DNA of 24,133 bases from a virus: the IMG/VR virus record IMGVR_UViG_3300037504_000484, positions 1 to 24,133 of that record; one strand, given 5' to 3'. Below the pieces are notes generated by a model. It was not told the DNA's origin, searched no databases, and saw only the letters and a list, made by a program, of their open reading frames with translations. How positions within the stretch are numbered: position 1 is the first letter of the stretch; each line of letters starts with the position of its first letter. A program made the translations under genes and the position numbers. Positions 6 to 23,091 of the stretch are shown one piece after another.

Positions 6-1127
6 ATGGCAGGTGTGGACTATACCGCTCTCACGGACCTGATCGCCACCACGCTGGACGATCTTCCCAAGGGGCAGTTTGAGGTGATGTGGGACTCGCA
101 GAACTACAAGTTCTGCCAGATCTACCAGGAGCATCGACGCACGGTCGACGGCGGCAAGGCGATTCAGCGTAACGTGATCCTGGACCGCAAGGGCCGGGCC
201 CGGTATCGTCGTCTGTACGACACGGACGAGCCGGTCGTCGATCAGAACATGAAGGAGATTGACGTGCCGTGGACGCAGATCGGCACGGACTACTCGTGGG
301 ACGTGGTCGAGATCCTACGCAATAAGAACTCCGAGAAGGGGTTCATCAACCTGCTGGAATCCCGTCGCACGGAGCGGATGTGGGATCTGGCGGAGCTGAT
401 CGAAGATCGCGGATGGTCCACCCCCACGTCGGCCACGGACAAGCTGTATCCTTATGGCATCCCGTACTACCTCAACTTCCTGGACGATGGCTCGGAAACG
501 GGCGGGTTCCACGGGAAGACGATCCGCTACCAGGGCGGAACGACGGGCACCATCTGTGCGGGCATCGACGCCGCGACAGAGAACAAGTGGCGGAACTACG
601 CCGACGTGTACACGACCGTCGACAACGCCCTGCTCCGGAAGCTCCGACAGGCCGTTCGTCGTACTCGGTTCCGTCCGGCCGCGTTCGTCCCCAAGCCGGG
701 GAAGGACGCCGTCGGTTCGCCGATTGAGCTCTACGCGAACGATTCCGTGACGACGGAGCTGGAGGATCTCGGCGACAAGCGGGACGATCGCAACGGCCCC
801 AAGGATCTCGCCGGAAAAATGTTGCATGACTTCGACGGCACGGTGTACTTCAACCGAATGCCGGTGGTCTACATCCCGCAGCTCGACGACCTGACCGTGA
901 CGGACGGCGGCGACAACACGTTCTCGCCGGAGCCGATCTACTGCGTCGACTGGACCAAGCTCCAGCCCGTGGTACAGGACGGGTACTGGATGGAAGAGTC
1001 CGAGCCGATGGTTGATCGTGGCCAGCATACCACGGTCAGCGTGTTCCTCGACGGGTCGCACAACAACTTGTGCGTCAATCGTCGGACGGCCGGATTCGTG
1101 CTCCACAAGAAGATCCCGGCTTCCTAA
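6..1127 (+). CDS. Phage major capsid protein
   Basis: Predicted main shell subunit of the icosahedral head. The 373-residue protein has the length and mixed alpha/beta character of HK97-fold capsid proteins. It has no signal peptide or membrane segment. An N-terminal helical region (about residues 5-50) is followed by a charged arm rich in Arg/Asp (45-75), a long helix near 110-135 with several Arg and Glu, and a beta-rich C-terminal part ending in the segment around FVLHKKIPAS. Its order, first in a run of head and tail genes and directly ahead of a head-tail adaptor two genes later, supports the role. The overall pattern resembles capsid proteins I recall from planctomycete-associated phages, which is memory and not a search result. 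The ATG at base 6 is the only visible start; its Shine-Dalgarno site lies outside the window, so a longer protein cannot be fully excluded. Confidence 0.8.
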   Translation: MAGVDYTALTDLIATTLDDLPKGQFEVMWDSQNYKFCQIYQEHRRTVDGGKAIQRNVILDRKGRARYRRLYDTDEPVVDQNMKEIDVPWTQIGTDYSWDVVEILRNKNSEKGFINLLESRRTERMWDLAELIEDRGWSTPTSATDKLYPYGIPYYLNFLDDGSETGGFHGKTIRYQGGTTGTICAGIDAATENKWRNYADVYTTVDNALLRKLRQAVRRTRFRPAAFVPKPGKDAVGSPIELYANDSVTTELEDLGDKRDDRNGPKDLAGKMLHDFDGTVYFNRMPVVYIPQLDDLTVTDGGDNTFSPEPIYCVDWTKLQPVVQDGYWMEESEPMVDRGQHTTVSVFLDGSHNNLCVNRRTAGFVLHKKIPAS

Positions 1128-1151
1128 GCCGGAACGACCAGACCGCTGTAG

Positions 1152-1178
1152 CCCCGGGGGTGAGTGAAACCCCCGGGG
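1152..1178 (+). terminator. GC hairpin after capsid gene
   Basis: Perfect 10-bp inverted repeat: CCCCGGGGGT (1152-1161), 7-base loop, ACCCCCGGGG (1169-1178). It sits 25 bases after the capsid stop and ahead of the next Shine-Dalgarno site. There is no T tract, so it may be a partial terminator or an mRNA 3'-end stabiliser that raises capsid expression over downstream genes rather than a classical intrinsic terminator. Confidence 0.5.
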
Positions 1179-1226
1179 TCGTCAGCAGTAGTAACGCTGC
1201 TGACTCTTCCAACAGGAGACAAGCTG

Positions 1227-2075
1227 ATGACTGCTATCATTGATGTTTCGCGGGCGGGCGAATCGGACAAGCCGAGCCCCAGTATCTGGGGGGACTGCCC
1301 CTGCACCATCCTCAACGACAAGGGCCTGGGCGTTTTCGTCCATGAGGATTTCCAGGCACCCATCTCCATCGCTACGCCCACGGACTCCGCTCCGATCGGC
1401 GGGGGGGCGTTCTCCTTTAAGGGCGACACGGACACGAGCCTCACGTCCGTTGCGGACACGCCCGGCGGGATCATCGACATGGAGACCAACACCACGGCGG
1501 CCGACGCCGGGGCGATCGTCGGCAACGCATTCGCCAAGATCGTGAAGAACTCGGGCAAGAAGGTCTGGTTCGAGACCCGGGTAGCTCCCGGGGATGTCGA
1601 CGATGACATGGGTACGTTCGCCGGTCTGGTTGAAGAGGACGGGGCCGACGAGGACGTGATCGCCGACGATCCAGCGGACAACGACGCTACCGCCGATGTC
1701 ACGCTCATCGGGTATCTCCAGTCCAATGACGACCCTGACGCGTACGACGCCCTGACCAAGAACGATACCGACGACGCGGTCCTCGTGAAGAACGATGTCA
1801 CGAACGCGACGGGGATTCCGTCGGACGATCGGGCGTCGCTGGTCGACGGCGTTGCTGCGACCGGAGCCGGGTTCCACAAGCTCGGTATCTACTTCGGTGG
1901 CCGTGACGTGATCGAATTCTACGTGGACGGCTACAAGGTCGCCACCGCGGATGTCGATTCCAACATCGACCAGGACAACTGGCTGGCCCCCATCGTCGCC
2001 GTGAAGACGGGCGACACTGCCGCGGAGAAGATCTTCGTGGACTGGATCCGGGCCGCGTACCAGGAACGGAGCTAA
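1227..2075 (+). CDS. Beta-rich virion protein, lectin-like fold suspected
   Basis: Unrecognised 282-residue protein, very acidic, dominated by Asp, Thr, Ala and Gly. The C-terminal part (about 205-280) has alternating hydrophobic strands and the segment FYVDGYKVATADVD, a pattern typical of concanavalin A/LamG-type jelly rolls. No transmembrane segment is seen. I chose ATG 1227 over the upstream in-frame GTG at 1164 because AGGAGA lies just upstream of 1227, while 1164 falls inside the loop of the preceding hairpin. Position directly after the capsid gene suggests a head decoration or head-fibre protein. That is inference from order and fold type; a tail role is also possible. Confidence 0.6.
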   Translation: MTAIIDVSRAGESDKPSPSIWGDCPCTILNDKGLGVFVHEDFQAPISIATPTDSAPIGGGAFSFKGDTDTSLTSVADTPGGIIDMETNTTAADAGAIVGNAFAKIVKNSGKKVWFETRVAPGDVDDDMGTFAGLVEEDGADEDVIADDPADNDATADVTLIGYLQSNDDPDAYDALTKNDTDDAVLVKNDVTNATGIPSDDRASLVDGVAATGAGFHKLGIYFGGRDVIEFYVDGYKVATADVDSNIDQDNWLAPIVAVKTGDTAAEKIFVDWIRAAYQERS

Positions 2076-2088
2076 GTCGCATGGCCGA

Positions 2089-2117
2089 GCCCCGCTCCCC
2101 TGATCCGGGGGCGGGGC
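2089..2117 (+). terminator. GC hairpin between virion genes
   Basis: 11-bp stem with one G-T wobble: 2089-2099 pairs with 2107-2117, 7-base loop. It starts 14 bases after the preceding stop and ends 20 bases ahead of the next ATG. There is no T tract. The following gene has only a weak ribosome binding site, so the hairpin may also influence its translation. Confidence 0.45.
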
Positions 2118-2136
2118 GGCCCTGCGTGAGAACGCC

Positions 2137-3162
2137 ATGAGTGAGCCGACCAGTGCTCTGACATTTCGCGACCTGATTCTGGAGGTCGCCCGCAAGCTGG
2201 GCTACGCCAACTACGGCGAAGACGGCGACGGGCCAATCGAGATCCCCTCGGATCCCCATGATCTGGACGAGTGCAAGCGGATCGTCAACAAGGCGATTCG
2301 CATGTTCGTCGCGGACGCTCCGGCTTCCGGATGGAAGTGGGCTCGTCCTGTCGCCGAGGTGACACTGTGGGGGACCGTGGCGACGGACAGCGACAATCTG
2401 GCCACTTCTGGTGGGTACGACCCTATCGCTGACCGGACGACGCTCAACGTCAGCGAGGATTCGTTCTACCCGTCGATGGAGGAGCGGACCCTGACCCTTA
2501 CCGGCGTTGGGGACTTCGTGATCGCCTCTTACGTGTCCGCCACGCAGATCAAGGTGCGGGGCGACGCTACCGGGGCCGGGGCTGCGGGGGTCACCTGGAG
2601 CATCACCTCGGACGGCAACTTCACGTTACCCAGTGACTTCGGTGGTGAATACTCCGGCGACGTGACCTACGCAGCGGGCACCGAGCAGGGCGTGGGTTTG
2701 GACTGGACCAGCGATGCGATCATCCGCCAGTGGCGGGCCGATCTGGCTGACGACTCCGGGGATCCCTTCCTGGCAGCCGTTCGGCCGATGGCCACGGGCC
2801 AGCCCCGTCGTCGCTGGGAACTGATGGTGTATCCCCAGCCCGACGATGTCGTTACAGTGACGTTCCCGTATACAGTGGGCTTCGACCAGTTGGTTGAGTT
2901 GGACGAAGTACCGCCCATGCCGTTTTCGCACGACGAAACGGTTCGGGCCGCGTGCTTGGCCATGGCAGAGAAGGACAACGAGGATATGCCGGGGCCGGAC
3001 TGGGAATACTACCGCAGCGTGGCCCTACCAAACAGTTACCGCTCCGACCTCCATGCCGCCCCGAAGAAGCTCGGGTATTTCGGTAGGGGTGGCCGTGGGC
3101 GGCCGTCGATTACCACGTTTCGCAATCACATGTATCAGCGTCCGAACGTGACGCTGGAGTAA
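2137..3162 (+). CDS. Head-tail adaptor, tail tubular protein A-like
   Basis: Predicted connector that attaches to the portal ring and carries the tail nozzle in short-tailed phages (role of T7 gp11 and P22 gp4). The 341-residue protein starts with helices typical of this class: FRDLILEVARKLG (about 10-22), then ECKRIVNKAIRMFVADAP (about 44-61), followed by a Trp. A beta-rich middle (about 70-200) contains Gly/Thr-rich strands, and a C-terminal helical part includes HDETVRAACLAMAEKDNEDMPG (in two pieces, about 263-284), the region that often packs against the portal. Placement between capsid and nozzle genes supports the call. The Shine-Dalgarno site is weak, and no better start is seen. Assignment rests on pattern and order; the family was not searched. 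Confidence 0.65.
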   Translation: MSEPTSALTFRDLILEVARKLGYANYGEDGDGPIEIPSDPHDLDECKRIVNKAIRMFVADAPASGWKWARPVAEVTLWGTVATDSDNLATSGGYDPIADRTTLNVSEDSFYPSMEERTLTLTGVGDFVIASYVSATQIKVRGDATGAGAAGVTWSITSDGNFTLPSDFGGEYSGDVTYAAGTEQGVGLDWTSDAIIRQWRADLADDSGDPFLAAVRPMATGQPRRRWELMVYPQPDDVVTVTFPYTVGFDQLVELDEVPPMPFSHDETVRAACLAMAEKDNEDMPGPDWEYYRSVALPNSYRSDLHAAPKKLGYFGRGGRGRPSITTFRNHMYQRPNVTLE

Positions 3163-3172
3163 GGAGCATTCG

Positions 3173-3829
3173 ATGTTCAACACCAACAACTTCCTGACCG
3201 AGCTCAAGGCGATCGTGATGGGCGGGGGCCTCAATGACGCGGGCCACCCGTACAACGATGCCGGGTTCCTGCGGGACATCCTGATCCCGCTCTCAGCCCT
3301 CGACCTCAACACGACGCTGACGGTGGACACCAGCGATGCTGGTGCCTCGGACGACCCCGTGCTGTACGGCGGTGCGTACCTCACCGCCGACGAGACCAAC
3401 GCCCGCGTGGTGAAGGTCGAAGAGACGACCGACGATATCGCCCACCTCACGTTCCCAGTTCCCCGGGACTATGACGAGGCCACGGACGTGATGAAGGTCC
3501 GCGTGCTGGCCAGCATGATCTCCGTCTCCACGGACGACGATGTCGAGCTCGACAGCGAGATCTACGTCAAGACCGCGGGCTCAGCTCTCGGGTCGGACCT
3601 GGACGTTACCAAGCCGGGCACGGTGCTGAGCACGACCGCTCAGTGGCTGGAGTTCGACCTGACGGGCAACGACCTGGAACGGGACGACGTGGTGAACTTC
3701 CAGCTCATCACCAACGGTGGGAACGATACCGATGGCGAGGAGGTGTTGATCCACGCGGTGCAGGTCGTCTATCGGTCGACCCTCGTGAGCTACAACCGTT
3801 CGGATGCCAGCGGCAACGCCCTCCGGTAA
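3173..3829 (+). CDS. Beta-rich virion protein, unknown role
   Basis: Unrecognised 218-residue acidic protein. After a short N-terminal helix (FNTNNFLTELKAIVMGGG) it is almost entirely predicted beta strand, with Thr/Val/Asp alternation and a C-terminal strand ending VVYRSTLVSYNRS. It has no membrane segment, signal peptide or catalytic motif. GGAG lies 7 bases ahead of the ATG, one codon-length after the stop of the adaptor gene, so the two are likely co-translated. Location between adaptor and nozzle suggests a head decoration, trimeric plug or tail-associated protein. Asp-rich turns may bind metal, but nothing specific can be shown. Confidence 0.6.
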   Translation: MFNTNNFLTELKAIVMGGGLNDAGHPYNDAGFLRDILIPLSALDLNTTLTVDTSDAGASDDPVLYGGAYLTADETNARVVKVEETTDDIAHLTFPVPRDYDEATDVMKVRVLASMISVSTDDDVELDSEIYVKTAGSALGSDLDVTKPGTVLSTTAQWLEFDLTGNDLERDDVVNFQLITNGGNDTDGEEVLIHAVQVVYRSTLVSYNRSDASGNALR

Positions 3830-3855
3830 GTCGCTGCGTCCCCTGAACTGATTCC

Positions 3856-3886
3856 CGGGCCGGGCTCCTTACCGGGGTCCGGCCCG
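3856..3886 (+). terminator. GC hairpin before nozzle gene
   Basis: Stem of about 13 bp with two G-T wobbles (3856-3868 with 3874-3886) and a 5-base loop, 27 bases after the preceding stop and 21 bases ahead of the next ATG. There is no T tract. It is of the same type as the hairpins at 1152 and 2089, suggesting a repeated regulatory solution in this operon. Confidence 0.5.
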
Positions 3887-3907
3887 ATTGCTACCCTGGA
3901 GAGACCC

Positions 3908-6484
3908 ATGGCCACACCGCAACCGCTCGTGTTTCCGGTACAAGGGCTCAACCGGTCTGCGGGTTATCACGCCCAGCCTGATGCGACGACGAAGACCGCT
4001 CTGAACGTGCGGCCCCACGACGCCATTGAAGGAAAGCTGCGAGGCGGGCGTCGAGCCGGGTTGTCGAAATGGGTCAACGGCCAGATCAACAGCTCGAACG
4101 CGATCCAAGCCATGACCAAAGCCACCCAGGCCCTGGAGTACGGGGAGTCCTTCTGGGACTTGATTGTCGCTGGAGGTAACGATGTCGCGGGTACGGATGA
4201 CAACATGGTTTTGCTGGCGGGCTCCGATGGCACGCTGATAACCGGGGTGGATCTGGGTAGCTACCCATACGCTGTCGCCCGGGATGCCGATGCGAACATG
4301 TACGCCTGGGCCTCGTCGAATACTTCCTACGATGGGTCTGACGGGACCGCGGCGAATCTCTTCTCCTACACCCCCTTCGGCACGCTCCGATGGGCTGTGA
4401 ATGTTACCCTAAGCGAAACGACTGCATCCCATCAGGGTCGATTGACGTGGGACTCTGTGAACAACCGGATCGCTCTTGGGTCTCTCGGTGGGTTCGGTGA
4501 AGCGAATGAAGTGTTGGTCCTCGACGCGAACACTGGGGCGACTTTGTGGACCGCGAGTATCGCTGCGGCGGATATCCACGCTGCGGCATTTGATTCTGAC
4601 GGCAATTTGATCGTGGGAGGTGACGATACGAAGCTGTATAAGTACGACGCCGACGGTACTCTTATCGCAACGAGCGTCGACCTGGGGTTCAATGTCAACG
4701 ACATCGACATCAATCCAAGCACCGGTGAGCTCCTGGTCGGTGAATACGGTGATCCCGCCCGGGAGGTCCGGATTCTTTCGTCGGACCTCTCAACGGTTGT
4801 GAACTCGTACACCCTCGGGGATAATAACGAATGGCTTACCGTGGTGTGGACCCCTGACGGCGACTTTGTTACTGGAGCCGGAAAAGATAGCGACGGAGGC
4901 TCGGGCGAGGGGATCCAGCGGATCACTCGGAGTACAGGGGCTGTCGCCTGGAGTTTTACCCTGGGCAATCCTGTCGGGGACAACAACTATGGGACGTATG
5001 ACCTCCGGATCAGCGGAAGCGGAGATCTGGTCATCGGGTTTGATACCACCTCTTCTAATACCGGGGTGTTCGTGCGGGATATCTCGGACGGCAGTGCGAT
5101 CTGGGATGCTGAGGACACTTTGTACATCGGAGAAACGCACGTCGATACTTATCGCGGCGACTCCCTCACGGCGGCGACCCGGGAGACCTCGCTGGTGGTG
5201 GTATCCGGGGGGTCCGTCTACAAGGTCGCGAACGGGGCCCGCTTGGCCGCGTCCGCGGGCTCCGGTGTCCTGACGACTGAGCCTGGACGTGTGCAAGCCC
5301 AGGCAGCTTACAGTAAGGTCTTCTGCGTGGACGGAGCGAACAGCAAATACTTCGACCTCGCCGACAACACCGTGTACGATTGGGCGACCAAGGTAACGTC
5401 AGACGGCGAGGGCACCCTCCAGGCAAACTCCCGACTGATCGCCCTGTACCGGGGTCGGGTGGTGCTGAGCGGCGTGCAGAGCGACCCGCACAACTGGTAT
5501 ATGTCTCGGGTGGGGGATCCTCTGGATTGGGACTACGCCCCGGCGACCACGTCGCTCACAGATCCGGTCGCCGGGAATAACGCCCCGGCCGGACTGGTCG
5601 GCGATATCGTCACAGCCCTGATTCCCGTGTCGGACGACGTGCTGCTGTTCGGCTGTGACTCGTCGATCTGGCAGATGACGGGCGATCCGGCGGGCGGCGG
5701 AGCGATTGACCTCGTGAGCGACCAGACGGGGATCGCTTTCGGCCGAGCATGGGCGAAGGATCCGTCCGGGGCCGTGTACTTTCTCGGGATCGACGGCGTC
5801 TATCGGATGCGAATGGGGGAGTACCCAGTCAGCATCACGATCGGCCGATTGGACCGGGAGTTCGAGGGCATCGACTTGGAGGCGAATGCTGCTCGCATGG
5901 GATGGGACTTCATCCGTCGCCAGCTCTGGGTGGTCATCGTTCCGGCGGACGGCGAGTCCGCTACGACGGTCTACGTCTGGGATCAGCGGACCGATTCCTG
6001 GTGGCAAGATGAATACCCGACGACGATGGGGCCGAACCTCGTGATTGGCTTCGACTCGGACAAGGCCGAGGATACCGCGTTCCTGCTGGGGTGCCGAGAT
6101 GGGTATATCCGGGAGGTCGATGATACAGCCGCCGACGACGACGGGACCGGGATCACCAGTAAGGTCCGGTTCAAACCCTTGATCGCGGGCGACCCCGCGG
6201 GGAAACTCCGGGTCGAAGAGCTCACCGCTATCATGGGCCTGGGAAGCGGGAATGTGGACCTGCGAGTCTACACCGGCCAGACGGCGGAGGAGGCGTTCGA
6301 CTCCTCAACCGTGCGAATGAAGAAGGTGTTGAAGGCCGGGCGGAACTCCTCACTCCGTCAACGAGTTCAAGCCGCGGCCTTGGAGGTCGAGATCGGGCAG
6401 GATTCGGCGTCGAGTCGCTGGGCCCTGGAGCGATTGAACATCCGAGCACAGCCTACCGGTCGAGCCCGCAGGCGGAAGGGATAA
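3908..6484 (+). CDS. Tail nozzle protein (tail tubular B-like) with extra beta-propeller
   Basis: Predicted nozzle of the short tail, comparable in role to T7 gp12 or P22 gp10. Residues 1-60 carry a pattern typical of nozzle proteins (PVQGLNRSAGY, then ALNVRPHDAIEGKLRGGRR). The C-terminal half (about 500-830) has the nozzle signature of instrument-like strands: LIALYRGRVVLSGV, DPHNWYMSRVGDPLDW, DDVLLFGCDSSIWQMTGDP and YVWDQRTDSWW. Between them, about residues 105-405, lies a repeat-built PQQ/WD-like propeller with recurring DxDGNLIVGG, NPSTGELLVGEYG and STGAVAWSF units. At 858 residues it is longer than I would expect for a plain nozzle, and the insertion accounts for that. GGAGAG precedes the ATG. 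The propeller stretch has visibly looser codon choice than the flanks, which may mean separate acquisition. The propeller may bind host surface or carry fibres; this is inference. Confidence 0.75.
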   Translation: MATPQPLVFPVQGLNRSAGYHAQPDATTKTALNVRPHDAIEGKLRGGRRAGLSKWVNGQINSSNAIQAMTKATQALEYGESFWDLIVAGGNDVAGTDDNMVLLAGSDGTLITGVDLGSYPYAVARDADANMYAWASSNTSYDGSDGTAANLFSYTPFGTLRWAVNVTLSETTASHQGRLTWDSVNNRIALGSLGGFGEANEVLVLDANTGATLWTASIAAADIHAAAFDSDGNLIVGGDDTKLYKYDADGTLIATSVDLGFNVNDIDINPSTGELLVGEYGDPAREVRILSSDLSTVVNSYTLGDNNEWLTVVWTPDGDFVTGAGKDSDGGSGEGIQRITRSTGAVAWSFTLGNPVGDNNYGTYDLRISGSGDLVIGFDTTSSNTGVFVRDISDGSAIWDAEDTLYIGETHVDTYRGDSLTAATRETSLVVVSGGSVYKVANGARLAASAGSGVLTTEPGRVQAQAAYSKVFCVDGANSKYFDLADNTVYDWATKVTSDGEGTLQANSRLIALYRGRVVLSGVQSDPHNWYMSRVGDPLDWDYAPATTSLTDPVAGNNAPAGLVGDIVTALIPVSDDVLLFGCDSSIWQMTGDPAGGGAIDLVSDQTGIAFGRAWAKDPSGAVYFLGIDGVYRMRMGEYPVSITIGRLDREFEGIDLEANAARMGWDFIRRQLWVVIVPADGESATTVYVWDQRTDSWWQDEYPTTMGPNLVIGFDSDKAEDTAFLLGCRDGYIREVDDTAADDDGTGITSKVRFKPLIAGDPAGKLRVEELTAIMGLGSGNVDLRVYTGQTAEEAFDSSTVRMKKVLKAGRNSSLRQRVQAAALEVEIGQDSASSRWALERLNIRAQPTGRARRRKG

Positions 6485-6486
6485 GC

Positions 6487-7974
6487 ATGGCCGCTGGACA
6501 GACACGAATCAAGTCGTCGGATGCCCGAGCTCGGCGGAACGCTGCCCGGCTGGCAAACGCTGCCACGCAGCTTGTCGGCGGTGTGATGGAACTGGATGAC
6601 CAGGGCCGAATCGTGTTGAATCTGGCGGACACGAATCCGGGGCTGGAGAACTCTGATGGATTGCGGGTGAAGGTAACGTCCCCGATCGCCCGCACCGCTT
6701 CGGGGGTCGATCTAACTCTCGCCACGGACCCCGGACTGGAGGACGTGAGCGGGTTGCGTGTGAAAGCGGTCGCCCCCCTGGAACGAACGGCAGACGGGTT
6801 GGAACTTTCCCTGGATGCTACAGGTGGCCTGCTGACGGTTGATAGCGGCAATCTCGCCTTCTCCTATGACGACACCCAGGGTCTCGACCAAGTGGCGGGG
6901 GAGCAAGACCCGGTTCAGGAGGCTGAGCTGATCGGGTGGTGGAAGCTCGACGACGGCTCCGGGGCGACCGCGGCCGATTCCTCGACCGGGAGCCATGACG
7001 GCACTCTGACCGGGCCGTTCGATGACGGAAGCGGTTGGGACGCGGCTGTCCCGGCCGTATCTCCGATGGTGGATAGCTCCCTGGATTTTCTGAGCGGTGA
7101 CAACTACGTAAAGATCACTGAAGCCGGAGATTTGGACATCGACCCGGACGGGGACGACTACACCGTCATGTGCTGGTTCAAGGACGTTCCGGATAACGCG
7201 AACCTCGTCCTGAAGGCCGGTGACCGCTGGTACGATACGCGGGGGGAGTTTGTGCTACGAGTCGTGCCGGATTCCGGTGGCTTGAACCGGATTTACCTCT
7301 ATATCGGCAATACCAGAGACGACTGGACGGCGGCATCGGGGACTTTTGATGATGGGAACTGGCATCATCTCGCAGTCTCCGTCCACGGAACCGCTGCTTC
7401 TCCCTCGGCCGACGTTTATCTCGACGGTTCTCTGTTCGGAACCCAGAGCTCCCTCGGATCCTATTCCGGGAGTCACCCATGGTTTATCGGGGGATCTGAT
7501 GATCCTACGCTGCCTGCTTCGCTGAACGGAAACATCTGCGATGTCCGAATCTACAGCACGGATCTGAGTGCCGCCGAGATCGCGGATATCGCCGCGGGGA
7601 CGGAATCCAATGTCCCCGATCTCCTGGTCGTGGATCTGGCTGCCACGAATCCGGGGCTGGAGTTCGACGGCAGTGGGGATCTCCAAGTGAAGGTTAAGGC
7701 GTCCAGTGGCTTGACGGTAGACTCCGACGGGCTACAGGTGACGGCGGCGACGGCCCGGGCGGACTCGTCTCAGAATGCCATTACGTTGACATCGGTGACT
7801 GACCCCGCGGATGCTCCGGCCGACGCCGATGCACTCCGTGATGATCTGGTGGCGAACGCCTTGGCCGAGCTCCAGACCCGCGATGGGGAGCTGAAGACGG
7901 CGATCGAAACACTGGCCGGGGAGTTCAACGATCTGCTGTCCAAACTCCGGACCGCAAACTTGCTTGACACTTGA
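6487..7974 (+). CDS. Tail fibre protein with LamG domain
   Basis: Predicted host-binding fibre, 495 residues. After a basic N-terminal helix (6-35) come two fibre repeats of the form NPGLE..GLRVKV..P..RTA.G..L (about 47-78 and 79-110). A concanavalin A-like LamG_3 domain follows (about 148-370), with the usual marks LIGWWKLDDGSG, a central YTVMCWFK strand, GNWHHLAVSVHG, VYLDGS and the closing CDVRIYSTDLSAAEIADIAAG. A third fibre repeat (386-420) resumes after it, and a C-terminal coiled coil (about 440-490) probably trimerises the fibre. LamG domains commonly bind glycans. It starts 2 bases after the nozzle stop, with GGAAGG inside the end of that gene, so translation is likely coupled. The last codons overlap the promoter at 7964. 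Confidence 0.8.
   Translation: MAAGQTRIKSSDARARRNAARLANAATQLVGGVMELDDQGRIVLNLADTNPGLENSDGLRVKVTSPIARTASGVDLTLATDPGLEDVSGLRVKAVAPLERTADGLELSLDATGGLLTVDSGNLAFSYDDTQGLDQVAGEQDPVQEAELIGWWKLDDGSGATAADSSTGSHDGTLTGPFDDGSGWDAAVPAVSPMVDSSLDFLSGDNYVKITEAGDLDIDPDGDDYTVMCWFKDVPDNANLVLKAGDRWYDTRGEFVLRVVPDSGGLNRIYLYIGNTRDDWTAASGTFDDGNWHHLAVSVHGTAASPSADVYLDGSLFGTQSSLGSYSGSHPWFIGGSDDPTLPASLNGNICDVRIYSTDLSAAEIADIAAGTESNVPDLLVVDLAATNPGLEFDGSGDLQVKVKASSGLTVDSDGLQVTAATARADSSQNAITLTSVTDPADAPADADALRDDLVANALAELQTRDGELKTAIETLAGEFNDLLSKLRTANLLDT
6631..6648 (+). repeat. 18-bp fibre repeat, second copy at 7645-7662
   Basis: ACGAATCCGGGGCTGGAG occurs identically at 6631-6648 and 7645-7662, once on each side of the LamG domain of the fibre gene. 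It encodes the TNPGLE part of the fibre repeat. The exact identity suggests recent duplication, gene conversion, or a site for domain exchange. Confidence 0.7.
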
Positions 7975-7992
7975 TCGTCCTGATGGTATAAT
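7964..7992 (+). promoter_or_regulatory. Consensus sigma70 promoter with extended -10
   Basis: TTGACA (7964-7969), a 17-base spacer, then TATAAT (7987-7992), with TGG directly before the -10 box matching the extended -10 TGn element. All twelve hexamer bases are consensus. Transcription should begin near 7999, leaving a leader of about 19 bases with the purine-rich AGAGGCGAGG ahead of ATG 8018. It overlaps the final codons of the fibre gene and would drive the internal virion protein genes separately from the head and tail genes. Such a perfect match is very unlikely by chance in GC-rich sequence, and its position in the only gap between these genes fits a real function. Confidence 0.85.
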
Positions 7993-8017
7993 ACGAACAG
8001 AGAGGCGAGGTACACAG

Positions 8018-9025
8018 ATGGCATATGCTGATTACATTCAGTCTTACCTCACTATGCCTGAGTGGAAGGCGGGGGGTAGGCATACCAAAACAGGAAAGAT
8101 GAGCCCTGTTCGGTCGAATGTACCCAAGCCAGCCCTGGATGGCGTCCTCAACATGGAGGACTTCAACCGGCAGATGGCGAAGATGAATCAGGCCAAGATC
8201 GGGCCCTCCCGGACGACAGGCGGGAGCTTCGGGTTCGTGCAGGCCGGTGGGGACGGTCCGGCCATGATCGACCCGCAGACCGGGCGGCATACTGGGCTGG
8301 TCGCTCCCGGGGGTGGCGGATCCTCGGGCGGCGGTGGCGGTGGAATGCACATCGGAACTTCCCGGACTGGATCGGCGAGTAGTTCAGGCTCATCCCGGCA
8401 GGGCCGGGGAGCGACTGGTATTCGAGCAAAGGCGGCAGCTATGGCACGCGGATCAATGCCCGCAGGGCGTATCGTCAGCATGAAGACTATCGGCGGGTCC
8501 AGCGGTCTGGGCGGCAAAGGGAGTTCCAGGAAGCAGTCTCAACTCGCTGAAGACCTGATTGCCCAGCTGACCCAGATGCAAGGTCAGGCCAACAAGGCCG
8601 GGAAGGCTCGTTATCAGCAGCTCCTCCAGCAGATTGCCCAGCTTCAACAGGGAATCCTCGGAGAAGGCGGCACTCTTGCCCAAGCGGAAGAGCGAATGGC
8701 CGGATTCGGAGAGGCAGGCCGAGCTCGTCTGGACCAGGATCTGATCCGCCAAATGGCCGAGGCTGAGCAGGGCCTGATCTCTCGTGGTTTGGGCAACACC
8801 ACCGTCCGAACCTCCGCCCGGCGGGGTGTTGCAGAGGACATCGAACGTGCCCGTCAGGCCCTCGACGAGCGAGTCGCAGCCCAGCAGGCCGGACTCTTGG
8901 AGCGACGAGCGGGGATGCAGGCAGACCTCGGCCGTCTCGAAGCCGATGCGATCCTCAGTCGCCAGGATGAAGGCCCGAACATGGGCACCTACCTGAACCT
9001 GATTCAGGCTCTGACTTCAGTGTAA
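8018..9025 (+). CDS. Putative internal virion protein, Gly- and Gln-rich
   Basis: Unrecognised 335-residue basic protein. The N-terminal third contains short motifs (YIQSYLTMPEWKAGG) and a low-complexity Gly/Ser stretch around residues 105-140. The C-terminal half (about 180-320) is one long predicted coiled coil rich in Gln, Ala, Arg and Glu (AQLTQMQGQANKAGKARYQQ, then QQIAQLQQG). Such proteins in this position between tail genes and a giant virion protein are typical internal core or ejection proteins of short-tailed phages, comparable in place to T7 gp14/gp15. I chose ATG 8018 instead of the in-frame TTG at 7964, because the TTG is the -35 box of the promoter and would be untranscribed from it. 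Confidence 0.6.
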   Translation: MAYADYIQSYLTMPEWKAGGRHTKTGKMSPVRSNVPKPALDGVLNMEDFNRQMAKMNQAKIGPSRTTGGSFGFVQAGGDGPAMIDPQTGRHTGLVAPGGGGSSGGGGGGMHIGTSRTGSASSSGSSRQGRGATGIRAKAAAMARGSMPAGRIVSMKTIGGSSGLGGKGSSRKQSQLAEDLIAQLTQMQGQANKAGKARYQQLLQQIAQLQQGILGEGGTLAQAEERMAGFGEAGRARLDQDLIRQMAEAEQGLISRGLGNTTVRTSARRGVAEDIERARQALDERVAAQQAGLLERRAGMQADLGRLEADAILSRQDEGPNMGTYLNLIQALTSV

Positions 9026-9037
9026 CCCGGAGACCCT

Positions 9038-9976
9038 ATGCCCGCACCTGTTCCAATTCGGATTCGTTACGATGCCCCCGCAGCCTTGGCCCGAGCGGCC
9101 ATGGGGGCGGGAGAAGGTCAGCGTGAGGCGGCTCGCGACGCCCGCTCTTGGGATGCTGCGATGCGGGTCGCCCAGCTCAACCAGCAGGCACGCCAGCTCG
9201 CTCAGCAGGAACGCATTCAGCAGCAGCGGTTGGAGCTGGACTACGCGAAGCTCGCCCAGCAGGAGCGACTCCAGGGCCAGCGACTCGGGTTTCAAGAGCA
9301 AATGGCCCGACGCCGGGCTACTCCGACTCCCGGAGCAATCCAGCAACCTGCCGCGGCTGGAGTTCCGATCAACCAGGCCAAGGCGGCGTACCTCCAGAGC
9401 GTCGCTCCAGAGCTCCCGCCGTCAGAGGCTCAGGCCCTGGGGGTGCTGGCGATGGACCCGGCGACCAACCTCAACCAGATGCGAGTTGCGACGAGCGAAG
9501 CCCTACGTCGAACGCAGGCTCAGCAGCGACGGATCTCCCCGCAGAAAGCGGCAGTGATGGAAGTACGAGGGGTGGAGGGCGAGATCAAGCGGCTCCAGCG
9601 AGAGGCGGCAGACCTAGCTGACAAACTCGAAGAAGCCGGGTTCAACCCCGAGGCTCCCCCGGCTCAGTTTACCGCCCCTGCTGAGATCACGAAGGGCTGG
9701 GTTGCTGGACTCAATCTGGGCGAGGACGTTGCTCCAGGCGTCGAAGGCGGACCGGAGGCCCTGCAAACATATACCGCCATGACCAAGAAATTGCAGCAGG
9801 TTGAGGCACTGAAGAAGCAGCGAGAACAGCTCCTCAACGCCGGACCAGCCCAGCCCCAGGGCCCGGGAACACCGCCCCAGGGCCCGGGAACACCGAGCCG
9901 ACCCACCACGATGCGATCTACCCCGGAGACCCCGCCAGCCGATATGGAGGGCTGGTCCATCCAAAGGATTGACTGA
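9038..9976 (+). CDS. Putative internal virion protein, coiled coil
   Basis: Unrecognised 312-residue protein rich in Gln, Ala, Arg and Pro. Residues about 25-95 form a strongly Gln/Arg-rich coiled coil (AQLNQQARQLAQQERIQQQ), followed by a Pro/Ala linker. A second coiled coil lies near 170-200 and a third near 240-265. The C-terminus (270-300) is Pro/Gly-rich with a duplicated PQGPGTP unit. It follows the previous gene by 12 bases, with CGGAGA ahead of the ATG. Its TGA overlaps the ATG of the giant protein (TGATG), so their translation is coupled and they probably assemble together as head core or ejected proteins. It has no membrane segment or enzyme motif. Confidence 0.6.
   Translation: MPAPVPIRIRYDAPAALARAAMGAGEGQREAARDARSWDAAMRVAQLNQQARQLAQQERIQQQRLELDYAKLAQQERLQGQRLGFQEQMARRRATPTPGAIQQPAAAGVPINQAKAAYLQSVAPELPPSEAQALGVLAMDPATNLNQMRVATSEALRRTQAQQRRISPQKAAVMEVRGVEGEIKRLQREAADLADKLEEAGFNPEAPPAQFTAPAEITKGWVAGLNLGEDVAPGVEGGPEALQTYTAMTKKLQQVEALKKQREQLLNAGPAQPQGPGTPPQGPGTPSRPTTMRSTPETPPADMEGWSIQRID
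9854..9895 (+). repeat. Two tandem copies of a 21-bp repeat
   Basis: The 21-base unit at 9854-9874 is repeated exactly at 9875-9895, in frame, encoding PQGPGTP twice. Each unit also contains the palindrome GGGCCC followed by GGG. Copy number could vary by slippage without shifting the frame. Confidence 0.85.
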
Positions 9977-12900
9977 TGCCCCGATACCGGTTGAAATCCC
10001 CCCAGGGCCAGACCTACGAGGTCACAGCCCCCGACGGGGCGTCACAAGATGAGGTTCTGACGTACTTCAAGCAGCAACTCGCCCAGAAGCCCCAGACCGC
10101 CGTGCCGGACTACATGCGGAACGTCCTGGAGAAGGGCGGGGTCCCGGCAGAAGACCGGGAACGCCTGATGTCTACCGGCATCACGCCGGGTACGGCTCCA
10201 GAGTGGGCGTCCGCCCATATCCAGATGCGGGAGGCCCAGCAGGGCGAGCCCTTGGGTCAGGAGATGCAGGAAGCGATCTTCGACCTCTACAAGCGGCAGT
10301 CAGGCCGTCGCGACGTGACAGGCCAGGACTTCTACGCCCAGCAGCGGGCCCGATCCCGGGCGGAACGCGGGGAGACTCTACTCGGCCGGGCCCAGAACGC
10401 CGGGCTGAACGTCCTATCCGGCATCGGCCAACTGGAGCACGACCTGATGGGCCTGGCGAATCCAGCCGAGGCGGAGCGGCTTGGCACCGAATATCAGGCG
10501 TTTCTGAACCCGGCGACTGAGACGTTGTCGGGGCAAGCCGGACAAGTCGCCGGGGAGATTATCAAGGTCGGCGGTCTGGCTGCGACTGGTCCGGCGGGCA
10601 TGGCTGCGATCTACGGCGGGAGCGGAGCAGGTGGCCAGCGACGCGAGGTTCATCGCCTCCGGCAGCAGGGGGAGGACGTCTCCCTGATGGAAGAGGCAGC
10701 CACCACGGCGGGCGTCGGGACGGCCGAGGCTGTGAGCGGGTACATCGGCGGGAAGATCTTCCAGCGGATGGGCCGCGTCCTTCGTACTGCCAGTCCGCAG
10801 CTCCGGACTCTCCTGGAAGGCGGCAGTAAGCAGGCGGTAAAGCGGCTGTTAGGACAGACCCTGTCTGCGGCGGGCCACGCCTTCGCCGAGGGAGGCGAGG
10901 AAGCCGCAACCCAGTACATCACCAATGCGATTCGACAGGGGATCGACCCCGAGGTCGCCCTGAACGAGGGCGTTCGAGAGGCATTTGTGATGGGGGCGAT
11001 CATCTCGCCCTTCGGTGCCGTCGGGGCTACGTCAGGGGAGCCGCGGACGCAGTTCCAGCCCGACGCCTTCGATGCCGCGATCCGAGCGACCGGTCTCCAG
11101 GCGGACCCCGCTGGAACACAGCCGTCTCCGGACGCAGCTCCGGTGACGACGGACCCAGCCCGTATGCTCCCTGATGAGCGGAGCATGGTACAGCGGGAGT
11201 TACAGGACGCCCGGCAGGCCCTGGCGGACGCCCAACAGGCGGCCCCCGCTCCGGCTGAGGGCCCGTTCATGGTCGATGAATCAGGCAAGGCAGTGACGCC
11301 GACCCAGCGGCAGGCCGTTGAGGGGCTCCGACAGGAGATGCTGACCCCCAAGACCGACCCGACCAAGCAACTCCCCGGGACTACAGCCCGGTTCGTGGCC
11401 GGAGAGCAGGGTCTGATGGACTTCCGGCCGGAGGAGGCCAGTCCCCAGGCCCCCGCGGCGGAACGCCGGGATCCGCAGGTCAGCGATGCGGTCACAGAGG
11501 AAGCCCAACAGTTCATTGAGGATATCCGCAAGACAGCAGAGCTTGATGAGGCCCAAGAAAACCAGATCCGCCAGCTCGTCAACGAGGCTCGTCGGAATCC
11601 GCTTACAGGCGGTATGAACCGGAATGCTTTCGAGCATGTGTTCGACGCCGTTCGTCGGCGAGCGAAGAAGACTCAGAAACCTGTCTCCGTGATCGCCCTG
11701 GACGCGGCCAACCTCAAAACATTTAACGACGTGATCGGAGAGTCAGCAGGTGATGAGTACCTCCGGCGGGTCCAGCGGGCAATCGAGGGAGCCCTGCGTA
11801 AGGGCGGCGACGACCGCATCGGTGACGCGTTCCACTACGGCGGGGACGAGTGGGCGGTGGTGCTGCCGGACACAGATGCGGAGGGGGCAGAGGCAGTTCG
11901 AGCTCGAATCGAAGAAGCATTCGGGCAAGAGGAGATCGTTCCGGGTGTATCGGCGTTCCTGGTCGGGGGCTCCGAGACGATCGCCCCGGGAAGTCGCCGA
12001 GAGTGGCGATCCATCCTGGACAAGGCTGCCAAGGCGATGAAAGCCCGCAAGGCCGAGCGGAAGGCGGCAATGGGCGAACCCACCACGCGAGCGGAAGCGG
12101 AGGCCCGGGCAGCGGAAGCAGTTCGCGAGGAGAACTACGACGTGGACGACGTTCAACCGGAACGTCAAGGCCCCCGCGTGCGGGAAGCTCTCCGGCGGCT
12201 TCGTCAGAAGCAACAGGAATTGCAGGAGGTCGATCAGCGAGTTGCAGCCCAGGCCAGCCGGGCTCGCCAGGCGGTGAAGCAAGCTCCCCCGATGGCGGGC
12301 ACTCAGCACAAGCGACGGGTGCCGCAAACGATCGAAGAGTTTCTGACACCGCTGAGCAGCCGAATCCGCGACCTCAGCCCGGCCATGTTCAACCGGCTGA
12401 TGCGGATGGAGTTCAACACGGGTGTTGCTCGCGAGAATCTGAAGCGAGAGTTGTCCGAGCCTGCCGGTCGACTACGGGAAGCCCTTCGCCGGGTCAAGCA
12501 AGAGGACGCCTTCAAGCTGGCCGTGCTCAACCAGGATTTCGACGCTGCTCGTTCCCTGATTGAGGGGATCAACAGCGACCTGGCGGAGGACTTCAATATC
12601 TTCGTCGGGACATTCAAGAATCTCCTTGACAATCAGCGAGCAGCAGGCGTGACAATCGGCGAAGTCGAGAACTACTGGCCCCGATTTGTCAAGGACTATA
12701 ATGCGTTTGACGCGATCTTCGGCAGCGATAAAGGCCGGTTCGAGCGAGCCTTTGACCTGGCGAAGAAGGTCAAGGGCCGCCGTATGCTGAACAAGGAGGA
12801 GCAGGCGGAGATCGCCAACAGTGTGATCCAAGGCTTCGGCCCTCAAAAGCCCGGGGCCTTCGGGCCGCCGAATGCTCGGTCTCGCCGAATCGACCGGGTC

Positions 12901-14367
12901 TCGCAGGAGCAATTGGGGCACTACCTCGACCCCTTCGAGGCCGCCATGCGATACGTTGACGGGGCGACGTATTCAGCCGAGCGAGCCCGGTTCCTCGGTC
13001 GCAACCACACGCTGGAGAACATGGACGAGACGATCGGAGCGATCGTCCAGGAAGAGATCGACCTGGGCAACCTGAAGAAGGCGGACCAGGCCGAAATGAT
13101 GGACATGCTGACGACCCGCTTCACGGCCGACATGCTCAAACCGTCGAAGGCCGTCCGGAACTTCAAGCAACTGATCTACCTGACCACCTTAGGCCAGTTC
13201 CGCTCGACGCTTACCCAGCTCACCGACTCAGCCATGACCGCGGCAGAGCATGGGATCGGACCCTGGTTCCAGGGGATGAGGCGAGCCCTGCGGCTCACAC
13301 CACGAGATCGTCGGTTTATGATGGAGGACATCGGAATCCACGATCACGGGGAAGAGTTCAAGGATGTCGGCCGGATTGCAGGGGCGTTGGATTGGACCCT
13401 CCGCACGACCCAGTTCAAGCGGATTGACCGGCTGGGGAAGGAAGGGCGTATCAATGCGGCTTGGGTCGCGATGGAGAAAGCAGCGGCTCGTCCCCGGAGT
13501 GCCAGGTTCCGAAAGCTCGAACGACAGTATCGGTCTGTCTTGGGGGACGAAGCATTCGACCAGGTGATGCACGATCTCCGCCAAGGGAAGAAGACCGAGG
13601 ACGTGCGATATCTGCTCTTCTTGGATCTCACGAAGGTGCAGCCGGTGACGACCAGCCAGATGCCTCAGAAGTATCTATCGAGCCCGGGCGGCCGGATCTT
13701 GTACGCCTTGAAGACGTTCACGATCACGCAGCTTGACCACGTTCGCCGTGACATGGTTCGCAAGATCTTGGCCCCGGGTCAGCGGCGGGAAGGGCTGTCC
13801 CACCTTGCTCGCTACCTGGTTCTCTTCGGGTTGATCGGGTTGGGGAAGGACTGGGTGAACGACTGGATCCGAGGGAAGCCACTCTCGACCCGCCAGTTGC
13901 CGGACCGATCGGCGGACGCCCTGCTGGGGTGCGTTGGTCTCAACCGGTACACGGTCGAAGAAGCCTGGAGTCGCCCGTCGGACGCTGCGATTAACTTCGT
14001 CGCTCCGCCCATGTCCTGGTTGGACGCGACGGTCCAGGACGTGACCAGTGACGCCCCTGGGCTCCGGAGTATCCGGAACATCCCGGTGGTCGGGGAACTG
14101 ATCTACTACTGGGCACCGTTTGGCCGGGGGTACTACCTGAACAAGCGAGAGGCCAAGCGAGACTATCGAGAGCTTCTGGCGGAACTCCGGAGCGAGGCCG
14201 CGGACGCTGTGCGGATCGGGGACACGGGCTACGCCCGACAGCTCATTGCGATCTACAATGAACGCCGAAAACAGGGCCCAGGTGACGGCCGGAAGGGGCG
14301 GTTAACTATCCGCACCCTCCGACGTGATATTCGCCGTGATGCAAAACGACGCCGAGAACAGGAGTAA
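9976..14367 (+). CDS. Giant internal/ejected virion protein with GGDEF domain
   Basis: 1463-residue protein, last large gene of the virion block. Residues 1-40 hold a short domain (YRLKSPQGQTYEVTAPDG) common at the start of phage internal proteins. Gly/Ala-rich hydrophobic stretches at about 190-220 and 335-350 could touch membrane, and a Pro/Ala/Gln-rich linker spans 370-530. Residues 536-700 are a GGDEF domain: NPLTGGMNRNAF (541-552), D576, N584-D585, GD at 592-593, and YGGDEWAVVLPDT (621-633). A coiled coil (about 700-770) is followed by a long helical C-terminal region (780-1463) with hydrophobic segments near 1280-1290 and a very basic tail. Position, size and layout fit an ejection protein or the polyvalent class of phage proteins delivered with DNA. 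Key GGDEF residues are present, so synthesis of c-di-GMP is plausible; a degenerate structural role is the alternative. Translation is coupled to the upstream gene by TGATG. Confidence 0.8.
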   Translation: MPRYRLKSPQGQTYEVTAPDGASQDEVLTYFKQQLAQKPQTAVPDYMRNVLEKGGVPAEDRERLMSTGITPGTAPEWASAHIQMREAQQGEPLGQEMQEAIFDLYKRQSGRRDVTGQDFYAQQRARSRAERGETLLGRAQNAGLNVLSGIGQLEHDLMGLANPAEAERLGTEYQAFLNPATETLSGQAGQVAGEIIKVGGLAATGPAGMAAIYGGSGAGGQRREVHRLRQQGEDVSLMEEAATTAGVGTAEAVSGYIGGKIFQRMGRVLRTASPQLRTLLEGGSKQAVKRLLGQTLSAAGHAFAEGGEEAATQYITNAIRQGIDPEVALNEGVREAFVMGAIISPFGAVGATSGEPRTQFQPDAFDAAIRATGLQADPAGTQPSPDAAPVTTDPARMLPDERSMVQRELQDARQALADAQQAAPAPAEGPFMVDESGKAVTPTQRQAVEGLRQEMLTPKTDPTKQLPGTTARFVAGEQGLMDFRPEEASPQAPAAERRDPQVSDAVTEEAQQFIEDIRKTAELDEAQENQIRQLVNEARRNPLTGGMNRNAFEHVFDAVRRRAKKTQKPVSVIALDAANLKTFNDVIGESAGDEYLRRVQRAIEGALRKGGDDRIGDAFHYGGDEWAVVLPDTDAEGAEAVRARIEEAFGQEEIVPGVSAFLVGGSETIAPGSRREWRSILDKAAKAMKARKAERKAAMGEPTTRAEAEARAAEAVREENYDVDDVQPERQGPRVREALRRLRQKQQELQEVDQRVAAQASRARQAVKQAPPMAGTQHKRRVPQTIEEFLTPLSSRIRDLSPAMFNRLMRMEFNTGVARENLKRELSEPAGRLREALRRVKQEDAFKLAVLNQDFDAARSLIEGINSDLAEDFNIFVGTFKNLLDNQRAAGVTIGEVENYWPRFVKDYNAFDAIFGSDKGRFERAFDLAKKVKGRRMLNKEEQAEIANSVIQGFGPQKPGAFGPPNARSRRIDRVSQEQLGHYLDPFEAAMRYVDGATYSAERARFLGRNHTLENMDETIGAIVQEEIDLGNLKKADQAEMMDMLTTRFTADMLKPSKAVRNFKQLIYLTTLGQFRSTLTQLTDSAMTAAEHGIGPWFQGMRRALRLTPRDRRFMMEDIGIHDHGEEFKDVGRIAGALDWTLRTTQFKRIDRLGKEGRINAAWVAMEKAAARPRSARFRKLERQYRSVLGDEAFDQVMHDLRQGKKTEDVRYLLFLDLTKVQPVTTSQMPQKYLSSPGGRILYALKTFTITQLDHVRRDMVRKILAPGQRREGLSHLARYLVLFGLIGLGKDWVNDWIRGKPLSTRQLPDRSADALLGCVGLNRYTVEEAWSRPSDAAINFVAPPMSWLDATVQDVTSDAPGLRSIRNIPVVGELIYYWAPFGRGYYLNKREAKRDYRELLAELRSEAADAVRIGDTGYARQLIAIYNERRKQGPGDGRKGRLTIRTLRRDIRRDAKRRREQE

Positions 14368-16743: not shown

Positions 16744-18369
16744 CTATTCCAGTGGAGCTCTCCAGCGGCCACCCTTCGACCACAGGAAAGTTCGTTTGCC
16801 GTTGGGGTAGATCCCACAGTGGGCGTGCATCCACTTCGACGGGCCCCGGTTGTATCCCATCTGCAAGGAGCCCATGACGCCGACTGTGTAGCACCCATCC
16901 ATGATACTGGGGGTGTGCGTGTGGCCGGTGATCGTCTTGAACCCGAGCTTGCTGTAGCTTCGGGGGGAGCCCCGCGACCCGCTGAGACCGACGTGTCCGT
17001 GGATTCCGCATTCGATCCCACAGACCTCATAGGAATCATCGACCCGCAGGAACTTAACGGACTCTGGGACGCTCAAGTGCGTTTGGAGATACCATTGGAA
17101 AGGGTCCAACGAGCAACCGCTCTGAGCGGCCCGGACCATTTCGAGAGCCGTTTGTAGGTAAATCTCCGCATTCTCCGGATCGGCTCGCCAGTCAGCTTCG
17201 CGGATCCACCGCCCGAACGCTTCGTGGTGATTGGACGCAATCACCACCACCTGGGTACTTGAGACAGTGGCTGTTAGCGACTTGAGAATGTCCGCGGCGT
17301 TTCGCAGGTCCCCAACAACTGACTGCTCACGAGAGTGCGTCCGTACCCGGAACAGGGGGTCATCCCGGGTGTGGTGGTTCCGGCTTTCAAAGTCAATCAG
17401 GTCGTGCACGAAGAGGTGGTCGGGGGACAGGGTATCGAGGATAGTCCCGACGAGATATCGCTGGTCCAGGGACAGCTTCTCACTGTGAACGTCCCCCAGG
17501 ACCAGGCCAGCCAACCCCTCCGGGTTTCGCTTGACGCGACCGTCTTCGACGCGACGATCCAACCAGTAGAACGATCCGTCTTCTTCCGCGTTGAGATGGT
17601 GAGTGAACCAGTAGCCGTCCTCGTCAACCTCCACCAGGAGGGCTCCGAGGACGTGATGGAAGTGAGCGATCTGTCCGGCCTTTCGCTGGATAAACTTCCG
17701 GAGCGTGACGCTGCCGGTCGTGGCCAGTTCCTTCGGCATCTGGTGTTGGCGACTCTCGACACACCGGAAGGCGAACCGGTTGTGGGGCACAATGACAGAG
17801 GACCGGCCACAATACGAATCGAGGCCGCTCAGGGGCCGCTTGGCGGTCGCCAAGATGTCCAGCTCCCCGCAGAACGCTAAGCGACGATGGAGCCGACACC
17901 GGGCGTTCACCATGTACGGCTTGATGGCCTGGTCCCACCACACTTCTCGCGATCGGTTCCCCTGGTCGCCCTTGCGAACCAGCCCTCGATAGCCTTGCTT
18001 GTCATAGATGGTGCAGGACACCAGCAGTTCAGCATCGACCTCGGCGGCCAACGCTTTGAGATTCGCCAGGAACCCCTCGTGGACTCGGCAGTTGTTCTGG
18101 GCTGAGGTCAGGATGTACCGGCGGACTCCGCCAGTCTGCTCGTGGCTCGCCCAGTAATCAACTGTCTCCACGCCTGCCTGCTCGATATGGGGGGCGGGCA
18201 GCTCCGTAGCATCAGGGACGAAGGCGTGTGCGGGCAACTCCGGCTCGAACCCCCGTAAGCGGCTCCGAATGGTAGACTCGGGAATCCCGAGAGCTCGGCC
18301 TGCCGGGCGGTAGCCGCCGTACTTCTGCACGGCTTCCCAGAGTTCTTGTTGGTTCCAGTTATCGGCCAT
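16744..18369 (-). CDS. HTH plus metallophosphoesterase, T5 A1-like
   Basis: 541-residue protein. Residues 7-40 form a helix-turn-helix (ELWEAVQKYGGYRPAGRALG, then PESTIRSRLRG). The C-terminal half (about 285-520) has the metal-binding motifs of calcineurin/Mre11-like phosphoesterases: GDVHSE (292-297, D293 and H295), Asp in VHDLIDF (321-327), SNHHE (379-383) and TGHTHT (481-486), plus HGHVG near 457-461. The middle (80-280) is not recognised. The fusion matches the family that includes T5 protein A1, a pre-early protein needed for host DNA breakdown and second-step DNA transfer. A nuclease acting on host or phage DNA is the likely role. ATG 18369 with GAAGGGAG upstream is preferred to the ATT-type extension from 18393. 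It follows the nucleotide-metabolism gene with a 20-base gap. Confidence 0.7.
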   Translation of the reverse strand: MADNWNQQELWEAVQKYGGYRPAGRALGIPESTIRSRLRGFEPELPAHAFVPDATELPAPHIEQAGVETVDYWASHEQTGGVRRYILTSAQNNCRVHEGFLANLKALAAEVDAELLVSCTIYDKQGYRGLVRKGDQGNRSREVWWDQAIKPYMVNARCRLHRRLAFCGELDILATAKRPLSGLDSYCGRSSVIVPHNRFAFRCVESRQHQMPKELATTGSVTLRKFIQRKAGQIAHFHHVLGALLVEVDEDGYWFTHHLNAEEDGSFYWLDRRVEDGRVKRNPEGLAGLVLGDVHSEKLSLDQRYLVGTILDTLSPDHLFVHDLIDFESRNHHTRDDPLFRVRTHSREQSVVGDLRNAADILKSLTATVSSTQVVVIASNHHEAFGRWIREADWRADPENAEIYLQTALEMVRAAQSGCSLDPFQWYLQTHLSVPESVKFLRVDDSYEVCGIECGIHGHVGLSGSRGSPRSYSKLGFKTITGHTHTPSIMDGCYTVGVMGSLQMGYNRGPSKWMHAHCGIYPNGKRTFLWSKGGRWRAPLE

Positions 18370-18389
18370 CAAATGCTCCCTTCGCAGTA

Positions 18390-23049: not shown

Positions 23050-23091
23050 AAAATCTCTCCTTCGTATTAAAGGTCTTGGTAGGTGTCTCAC

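Follow-up and report, generated by a model that had tools for sequence, protein, structure and literature searches.

Can a bacteriophage carry a working second-messenger synthase within a protein that it ejects into the host, and would such an enzyme act at entry? This question was raised by a single IMG/VR virus record of an uncultured virus (IMGVR_UViG_3300037504_000484; 24,133 bases; 62% G+C), hereafter referred to as the window, in which a GGDEF domain is embedded in a 1463-aa protein designated P0002. The reading that we favor, and to which we give an even chance of being correct, is that the largest ejection protein of a short-tailed phage lineage would include a working diguanylate cyclase as one of its modules, and that this enzyme would act at entry.

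Genomic context of P0002

The gene order in the window was of the short-tailed-phage type. The plus strand encodes, in this order, the major capsid protein, small virion proteins, a nozzle/closure protein, a lectin-like fibre, two proteins of 353 and 312 aa, and the 1463-aa ORF, and the minus strand bears a replication module consisting of a T5 A1-like protein, a nucleotide hydrolase fusion, a primase, a GroES-like protein, and a Sak4-like annealing protein.

6..7974 (+): structural module with major capsid protein, adaptor, nozzle/closure, and lectin-like fibre (NF033394, at 77.3 bits slightly below the cut-off of 80; phrog_376)
7964..9976 (+): gene pair (353 + 312 aa) immediately 5' of P0002, kept ahead of the GGDEF gene in relatives
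9976..14367 (+): P0002, 1463 aa, putative large ejection-type protein with a GGDEF domain (open frame; synteny in relatives)

The P0002 frame was open, with its ATG overlapping the TGA stop of the preceding gene. It closes the structural module and is separated from the nozzle/fibre genes by two small genes, a slot that in T7 belongs to gp16. By position only, the 353-aa and 312-aa genes occupy the places of T7 gp14 and gp15, and P0002, the third and largest of the three, would correspond to gp16. Neither sequence homology of the window proteins to T7 gp14-16 nor, outside the GGDEF domain, any sequence match in the PDB was found, and the assignment of P0002 as an ejection protein thus derives from position and analogy, not from membership of the T7 family. 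The initial annotation had described a giant phage virion protein; the large protein of a late module, in a position fitting an ejection protein, was borne out, and the word "virion" reflects gene position.

The same plan was more completely visible in a relative (L109), where a terminase-like gene leads into a SU10-like portal; capsid, adaptor, and head-closure/nozzle genes come next, and two small genes separate these from the gene of the GGDEF protein (in L109/L215, Hc3 follows the terminase and the SU10-like portal in order). Tail-tube and tape-measure genes were not detected in L109, and its gene order is, as far as gene content tells, that of a short-tailed phage.

Several other genes of the window were characterized in passing. 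The fibre-like protein (6487-7974, +) combines a laminin-G/ConA domain with repeats matching the avian adenovirus fibre N-terminal family PF06536. In the replication module, the GroES-like co-chaperonin gene (22690-23091, -; phrog_3188, 31.6 bits) is also kept in L022, L023, L027, and L109, and weakly in L028; the product of 18390-19352 (-) fuses PF18909, the N-terminal domain of a dATP/dGTP diphosphohydrolase, to DUF4406, which resembles a nucleoside deoxyribosyltransferase; and 16744-18393 (-) encodes, here in a short-tailed phage, the T5 A1-like DNA transfer protein (phrog_1745 at 533 bits), relatives of which are present in 1125 phage records.

Domain organization of P0002

Domain searches and structure prediction divided P0002 into the following parts.

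10081..11022 (+): N-terminal module, aa 36-349, common to L022, L023, L025, L103, L106, and L028
11488..11595 (+): predicted helix into the GGDEF domain, aa 505-540 (AlphaFold2 helices ahead of the domain)
11596..12075 (+): GGDEF domain, aa 541-700 (PF00990; AlphaFold2; Foldseek)
12271..14325 (+): C-terminal module, aa 766-1450, predicted all-helical, common to L022, L023, L024, L025, L103, and L109

The GGDEF domain was the sole domain recognized, as the N- and C-terminal modules matched no known family; neither a metallopeptidase nor a further enzymatic domain was found in the domain searches, nor an LPD domain in the Pfam search. The N-terminal module is also in part common to the 3.5-kaa proteins of L117/L121. 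Hydropathy analysis indicated two Gly/Ala-rich segments of mild hydrophobicity (aa 195-213 and 333-351), whose location ahead of the GGDEF domain would fit a cytoplasmic placement of the latter. The helix at aa 505-540 resembles the signalling helix that precedes many diguanylate cyclases. The C-terminal region gave no match among 50,697 phage records even at an E-value of 10, and its AlphaFold2 model (pLDDT 55) was of low confidence and too poor for a fold search. Its identification as an LPD38 domain was rejected (hhalign probability 0.1 against LPD38 of L106/L115).

The region of aa 541-700 is a GGDEF domain. Pfam PF00990 matched aa 542-695 with an E-value of 3.9e-19, scoring 69.4 bits where 23.8 is the cut-off, and NCBIfam TIGR00254 with 72.2 bits (cut-off 37.4); the best PDB sequence match was WspR (E = 3e-16). 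The match is far beyond chance. The AlphaFold2 model of the domain (pLDDT 95.0, pTM 0.88) retrieved exclusively GGDEF domains as its top folds in a Foldseek search of the PDB, with WspR, SiaD, and PleD closest and E-values down to 5e-15. The intact-looking GGDEF domain recognized at the outset was hence upheld by the profile search, PDB sequences, and predicted fold alike, including the comparison with PleD that had been proposed as a check; its entry NPLTGGMNRNAF occupies aa 541-552 as claimed, and the end helix DKAAKAMKARKAERK is present and contains two phosphate-binding lysines, K692 and K696, which the first reading had missed.

Active-site residues

The positions to which we presumptively transferred the metal, guanine, and phosphate contacts of PleD are as follows.

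11701..11703 (+): D576, metal-binding Asp (PleD D327), invariant in 23 phage GGDEF domains
11725..11727 (+): N584, guanine contact (PleD N335), invariant in 23 phage GGDEF domains
11752..11754 (+): D593, guanine contact (PleD D344), D in 19 of 23 phage copies and N or T in the other four
11815..11826 (+): RIGD, aa 614-617, RxxD-like (WspR alignment; spacing varies among relatives)
11839..11853 (+): GGDEW active-site loop, aa 622-626; GGDE invariant in 23 copies, in part because it belonged to the search pattern for most of them, and the last residue F in 21
12049..12063 (+): K692 and K696, phosphate-contacting pair (PleD K442/R446), both invariant in six lineage members

Alignment with WspR and PleD revealed that all catalytic positions are kept (D576, GGDE at 622-625, N584, D593, K581, K692, and K696), the spacing of K692 and K696 matching that of PleD K442 and R446 with the Arg replaced by Lys. 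D576, N584, D593, and YGGDEW (621-626) all lay at the places originally given, and the PleD alignment held on rechecking. Two residues were unusual: W626 of the GGDEW loop was unique to P0002 among the 23 phage copies compared, and E589 stands where His is usual. The RIGD sequence is located one residue nearer to GGDEW than the corresponding site in WspR and hence misses the register of the I-site, an optional RxxD feature that precedes GGDEF by five residues, so that P0002 has no canonical I-site, in line with the earlier view that the inhibitory RxxD site is not conserved.

Receptor roles are well established for GGDEF domains that lack catalytic activity, and the domain may accordingly bind GTP or c-di-GMP in a sensory or structural capacity, for instance to signal arrival in the cytoplasm, and form no product. 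The two unusual residues, W626 and E589, would suit such a role; degenerate GGDEF receptors, however, usually lose the loop residues, whereas GGDE, D576, N584, K581, K692, and K696 are all kept in the six homologues, and the canonical I-site that would bind c-di-GMP is absent. We consider this explanation fairly improbable.

With regard to the product, the retention of D593 argues for GTP and against the Hypr/cGAMP type, as had been reasoned at the start, and with N584 also kept, the residues support assignment of the P0002 domain to the c-di-GMP type. The formation of another cyclic dinucleotide (cGAMP, c-di-AMP, or a mixed one) that jams or mis-primes a CBASS-like or Panoptes-like defence appears quite improbable given that both of these residues point to GTP, even though four of the 23 phage copies have N or T in place of D593, free-standing relatives adjoin anti-restriction genes, and polyvalent proteins have been proposed to serve as counter-defence (Iyer et al., 2017; PMC5512222).

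Relatives of P0002

Single-protein scans of IMG/VR with P0002 or the A1 protein found no relatives. A scan with an alignment of the neighbouring A1-like protein, which carries no GGDEF information, yielded seven close phages (L022-L028). A large ORF lay beside the same genes in six of the seven, and the GGDEF domain exceeded the Pfam cut-off in five of these six; the contig of L027 stops ahead of the gene. In the sixth, L028, a large ORF with the N-terminal module in common fills the same slot, and no GGDEF domain is present anywhere in the 44.4-kb record, indicating that the domain is not essential for this phage type.

A scan with a GGDEF alignment gave 26 loci, including three further lineage members (L103/L104, L106, and L109); in all, the scans beyond the A1-based one yielded four more same-slot GGDEF members and one free-standing copy. 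The GGDEF gene follows the nozzle, the fibre, and two small genes in L022-L025, L103, and L109, and the arrangement is similar in L106, L111, and L128, the last of which, in a Planctomycetia assembly, shows a nozzle gene, a small gene, and then a 2540-aa GGDEF protein. Among the 26 loci, the domain was also found inside phage-type proteins of 2000-4300 aa, some of which additionally contain LPD38, LPD22, or ADP-ribosyltransferase (ART) domains; such combinations were seen in L106, L115, L116, and L124. The product of L124:3612-14714, for example, is a 3701-aa phage-type protein with GGDEF and a polyvalent-protein ADP-ribosyltransferase. The free-standing copy (L110:2732-3358) is a 209-aa GGDEF gene located upstream of replication genes on a contig with a related Sak4 gene. 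A second group of phage GGDEF domains (L114:7869-8453, L122:1098-1682, L113:4902-5645, and L116:7932-8459) occurs both as single genes of ~195-250 aa and within a 3.2-kaa protein with LPD22.

The annotated phage-collection matches to P0002 that we opened were flanked by bacterial genes and were discarded as contamination. In INPHARED, L002-L005 are labelled as phage and carry bacterial housekeeping genes around the GGDEF match; they include Acinetobacter phage MD-2021a, Microcystis phage MaAM05, and the bacterial flank of E. coli phage 683R6.

Selection, module exchange, and phylogeny

Across the six homologues that had been found without the use of GGDEF, to which this argument is limited (26-65% identity), 9 of 10 active-site positions were invariant as compared with 17 of 160 in the whole domain (hypergeometric P = 1.5e-9). 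The GGDEF domain also had the lowest amino-acid divergence within the protein in all three pairs formed by the window, L102, and L103; between the window and L102, pN was 0.21 for GGDEF, 0.27 for the C module, 0.37 for the N module, and 0.44 for the linker, synonymous sites being saturated. These patterns indicate strong purifying selection on the domain and its active site.

The N-terminal, GGDEF, and C-terminal modules occur in differing combinations across the relatives. L024 and L109 have only the GGDEF and C modules in common with P0002, L106 only the N module and GGDEF, L026 a short N-terminal stretch and GGDEF, and L028 only the N module. Since the modules recombine independently and GGDEF evolves the slowest of them, GGDEF is a selected module, and by its pattern it looks like an exchangeable, useful one.

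In a tree of 103 domains, the GGDEF domains of the lineage formed one group with an SH-aLRT of 94. Most of the other phage copies lay close to this group, and the bacterial GGDEF domains among the matches listed were separate from it. With bacterial domains drawn from those matches, a sample biased towards window-like sequences, and with a quickly built tree, a GGDEF branch specific to phages is likely, not proven.

These data also bear on a trivial origin of the domain, as a neutrally hitch-hiking bacterial fragment, a chance event, or a bacterial contaminant in the contig. GGDEF domains are very common in bacteria, and the annotated phage-collection matches examined do sit among bacterial genes; the domain, however, recurs in the same slot in ~10 separate contigs, on one tree branch, and under strong purifying selection. 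Such an origin is extremely improbable, and contamination or a degenerate domain was rejected on the grounds of selection, tree grouping, and active-site conservation.

Proposed mechanism

The virion core of T7 holds four copies of gp16; after ejection the number is six, and its C-terminal part is thought to be placed in the cytoplasm (PMC8954989). By analogy, P0002 would form an oligomer inside the capsid and enter the cell before the DNA does, and its portion beyond the hydrophobic segments would reach the cytoplasm like gp16-C. Two GGDEF domains could then pair via the oligomer and the preceding helices and convert GTP to c-di-GMP, which, given the lack of a canonical I-site, we propose would proceed without product inhibition. 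No PilZ or EAL proteins, the two commonest kinds of c-di-GMP receptor and phosphodiesterase, were found in eight related records, the control genomes being positive, and the signal would therefore act on host receptors. The likeliest effect early in infection, within its first minutes, would be slower motility or altered surface structures, or a disturbance of nucleotide-based defence. Phages are known to use a rise in c-di-GMP as a tactic: a peptide of PB1-like phages is described, in the account that PMC12380882 gives of De Smet et al. (2021), as acting on YfiN and raising c-di-GMP.

Several observations weigh against the favored reading, namely L028 with its GGDEF-free ORF, the Trp for Phe substitution in the GGDEW loop of P0002, the lack of detected sequence homology to T7 gp14-16, and the poor C-terminal model. 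In addition, P0002 would be made late and could thus act in the producing cell. In that case the cyclase would alter the host before lysis, and its place in a virion protein would be incidental. Location of the gene in the late structural module implies production in bulk at that stage, and the free-standing phage GGDEF genes (L110, YuA gp44, and Bordetella CN1 gp42) must act within the infected cell; fusion to an ejection-type protein across many distinct backbones, in contrast, would not be expected from late action, which we regard as unlikely. The broader form of the entry reading, in which a second-messenger synthase in the ejection apparatus would raise host c-di-GMP before phage gene expression and the same phage-specific GGDEF lineage would also exist as free-standing genes, falls somewhat short of an even chance.

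Comparison with known systems

Ejection proteins are able to carry enzymes, as in N4 (vRNAP) and phiM1. P0002 resembles T7 gp16, phiM1, and N4 vRNAP in being the large last gene after two smaller ones and, with respect to phiM1 and N4, in having an enzyme in an ejection-type protein, and it differs from T7 gp16 in showing no detected sequence homology. The known cargo is a peptidoglycan hydrolase or an RNA polymerase, whereas that of P0002 would be a second-messenger enzyme domain. The domain itself shares fold and catalytic residues with WspR, PleD, and SiaD, but lacks a receiver or sensor domain and the canonical I-site, and has Lys for R446 and the GGDEW loop.

GGDEF domains in phage polyvalent proteins have been described as not very widespread, with a prophage protein of Acetonema longum as an example, and were proposed to use or interfere with cyclic nucleotides after delivery with the DNA (Iyer et al., 2017; PMC5512222). 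The core hypothesis, namely GGDEF delivery and a cyclic-nucleotide role, was thus already put forward in 2017. P0002 is like the polyvalent proteins in that GGDEF is embedded in a giant phage protein near late virion genes, and differs in that no metallopeptidase, LPD (frequent but not obligatory in polyvalent proteins), or other enzymatic domain was found in it and in belonging to a conserved short-tailed lineage in the ejection-protein slot. What is new here is this lineage and slot, together with the evidence that the domain is selected and its neighbouring modules exchanged, a broader collection of phage copies, and the cultured kin. If P0002 is active and ejected, a virus would deliver a signalling enzyme with its genome prior to transcription, with motility, surface structures, or cyclic-nucleotide defence as targets, and the lineage would give the 2017 proposal a conserved, testable case, for which YuA gp44 and its kin offer cultured relatives. 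The lineage also provides examples of an apparently phage-specific GGDEF branch.

Unlike P0002, the free-standing phage GGDEF proteins (YuA gp44, the Bordetella phage CN1/LK3 protein, Bacillus phage G Gp350, and SP-15) are small, separate, and unfused to an ejection-type protein. No biochemical test of a phage GGDEF domain was found in the literature outside subscription journals and bioRxiv. Lysogens of LK3, which carries a GGDEF protein, form 2-4 times more biofilm, as a correlation only (PMC8471281). In the cultured phages YuA (gp44, L208:7992-8462) and CN1 (L209:4944-5402), the GGDEF genes encode SGDEF/AGDEF loops and lie beside anti-restriction genes.
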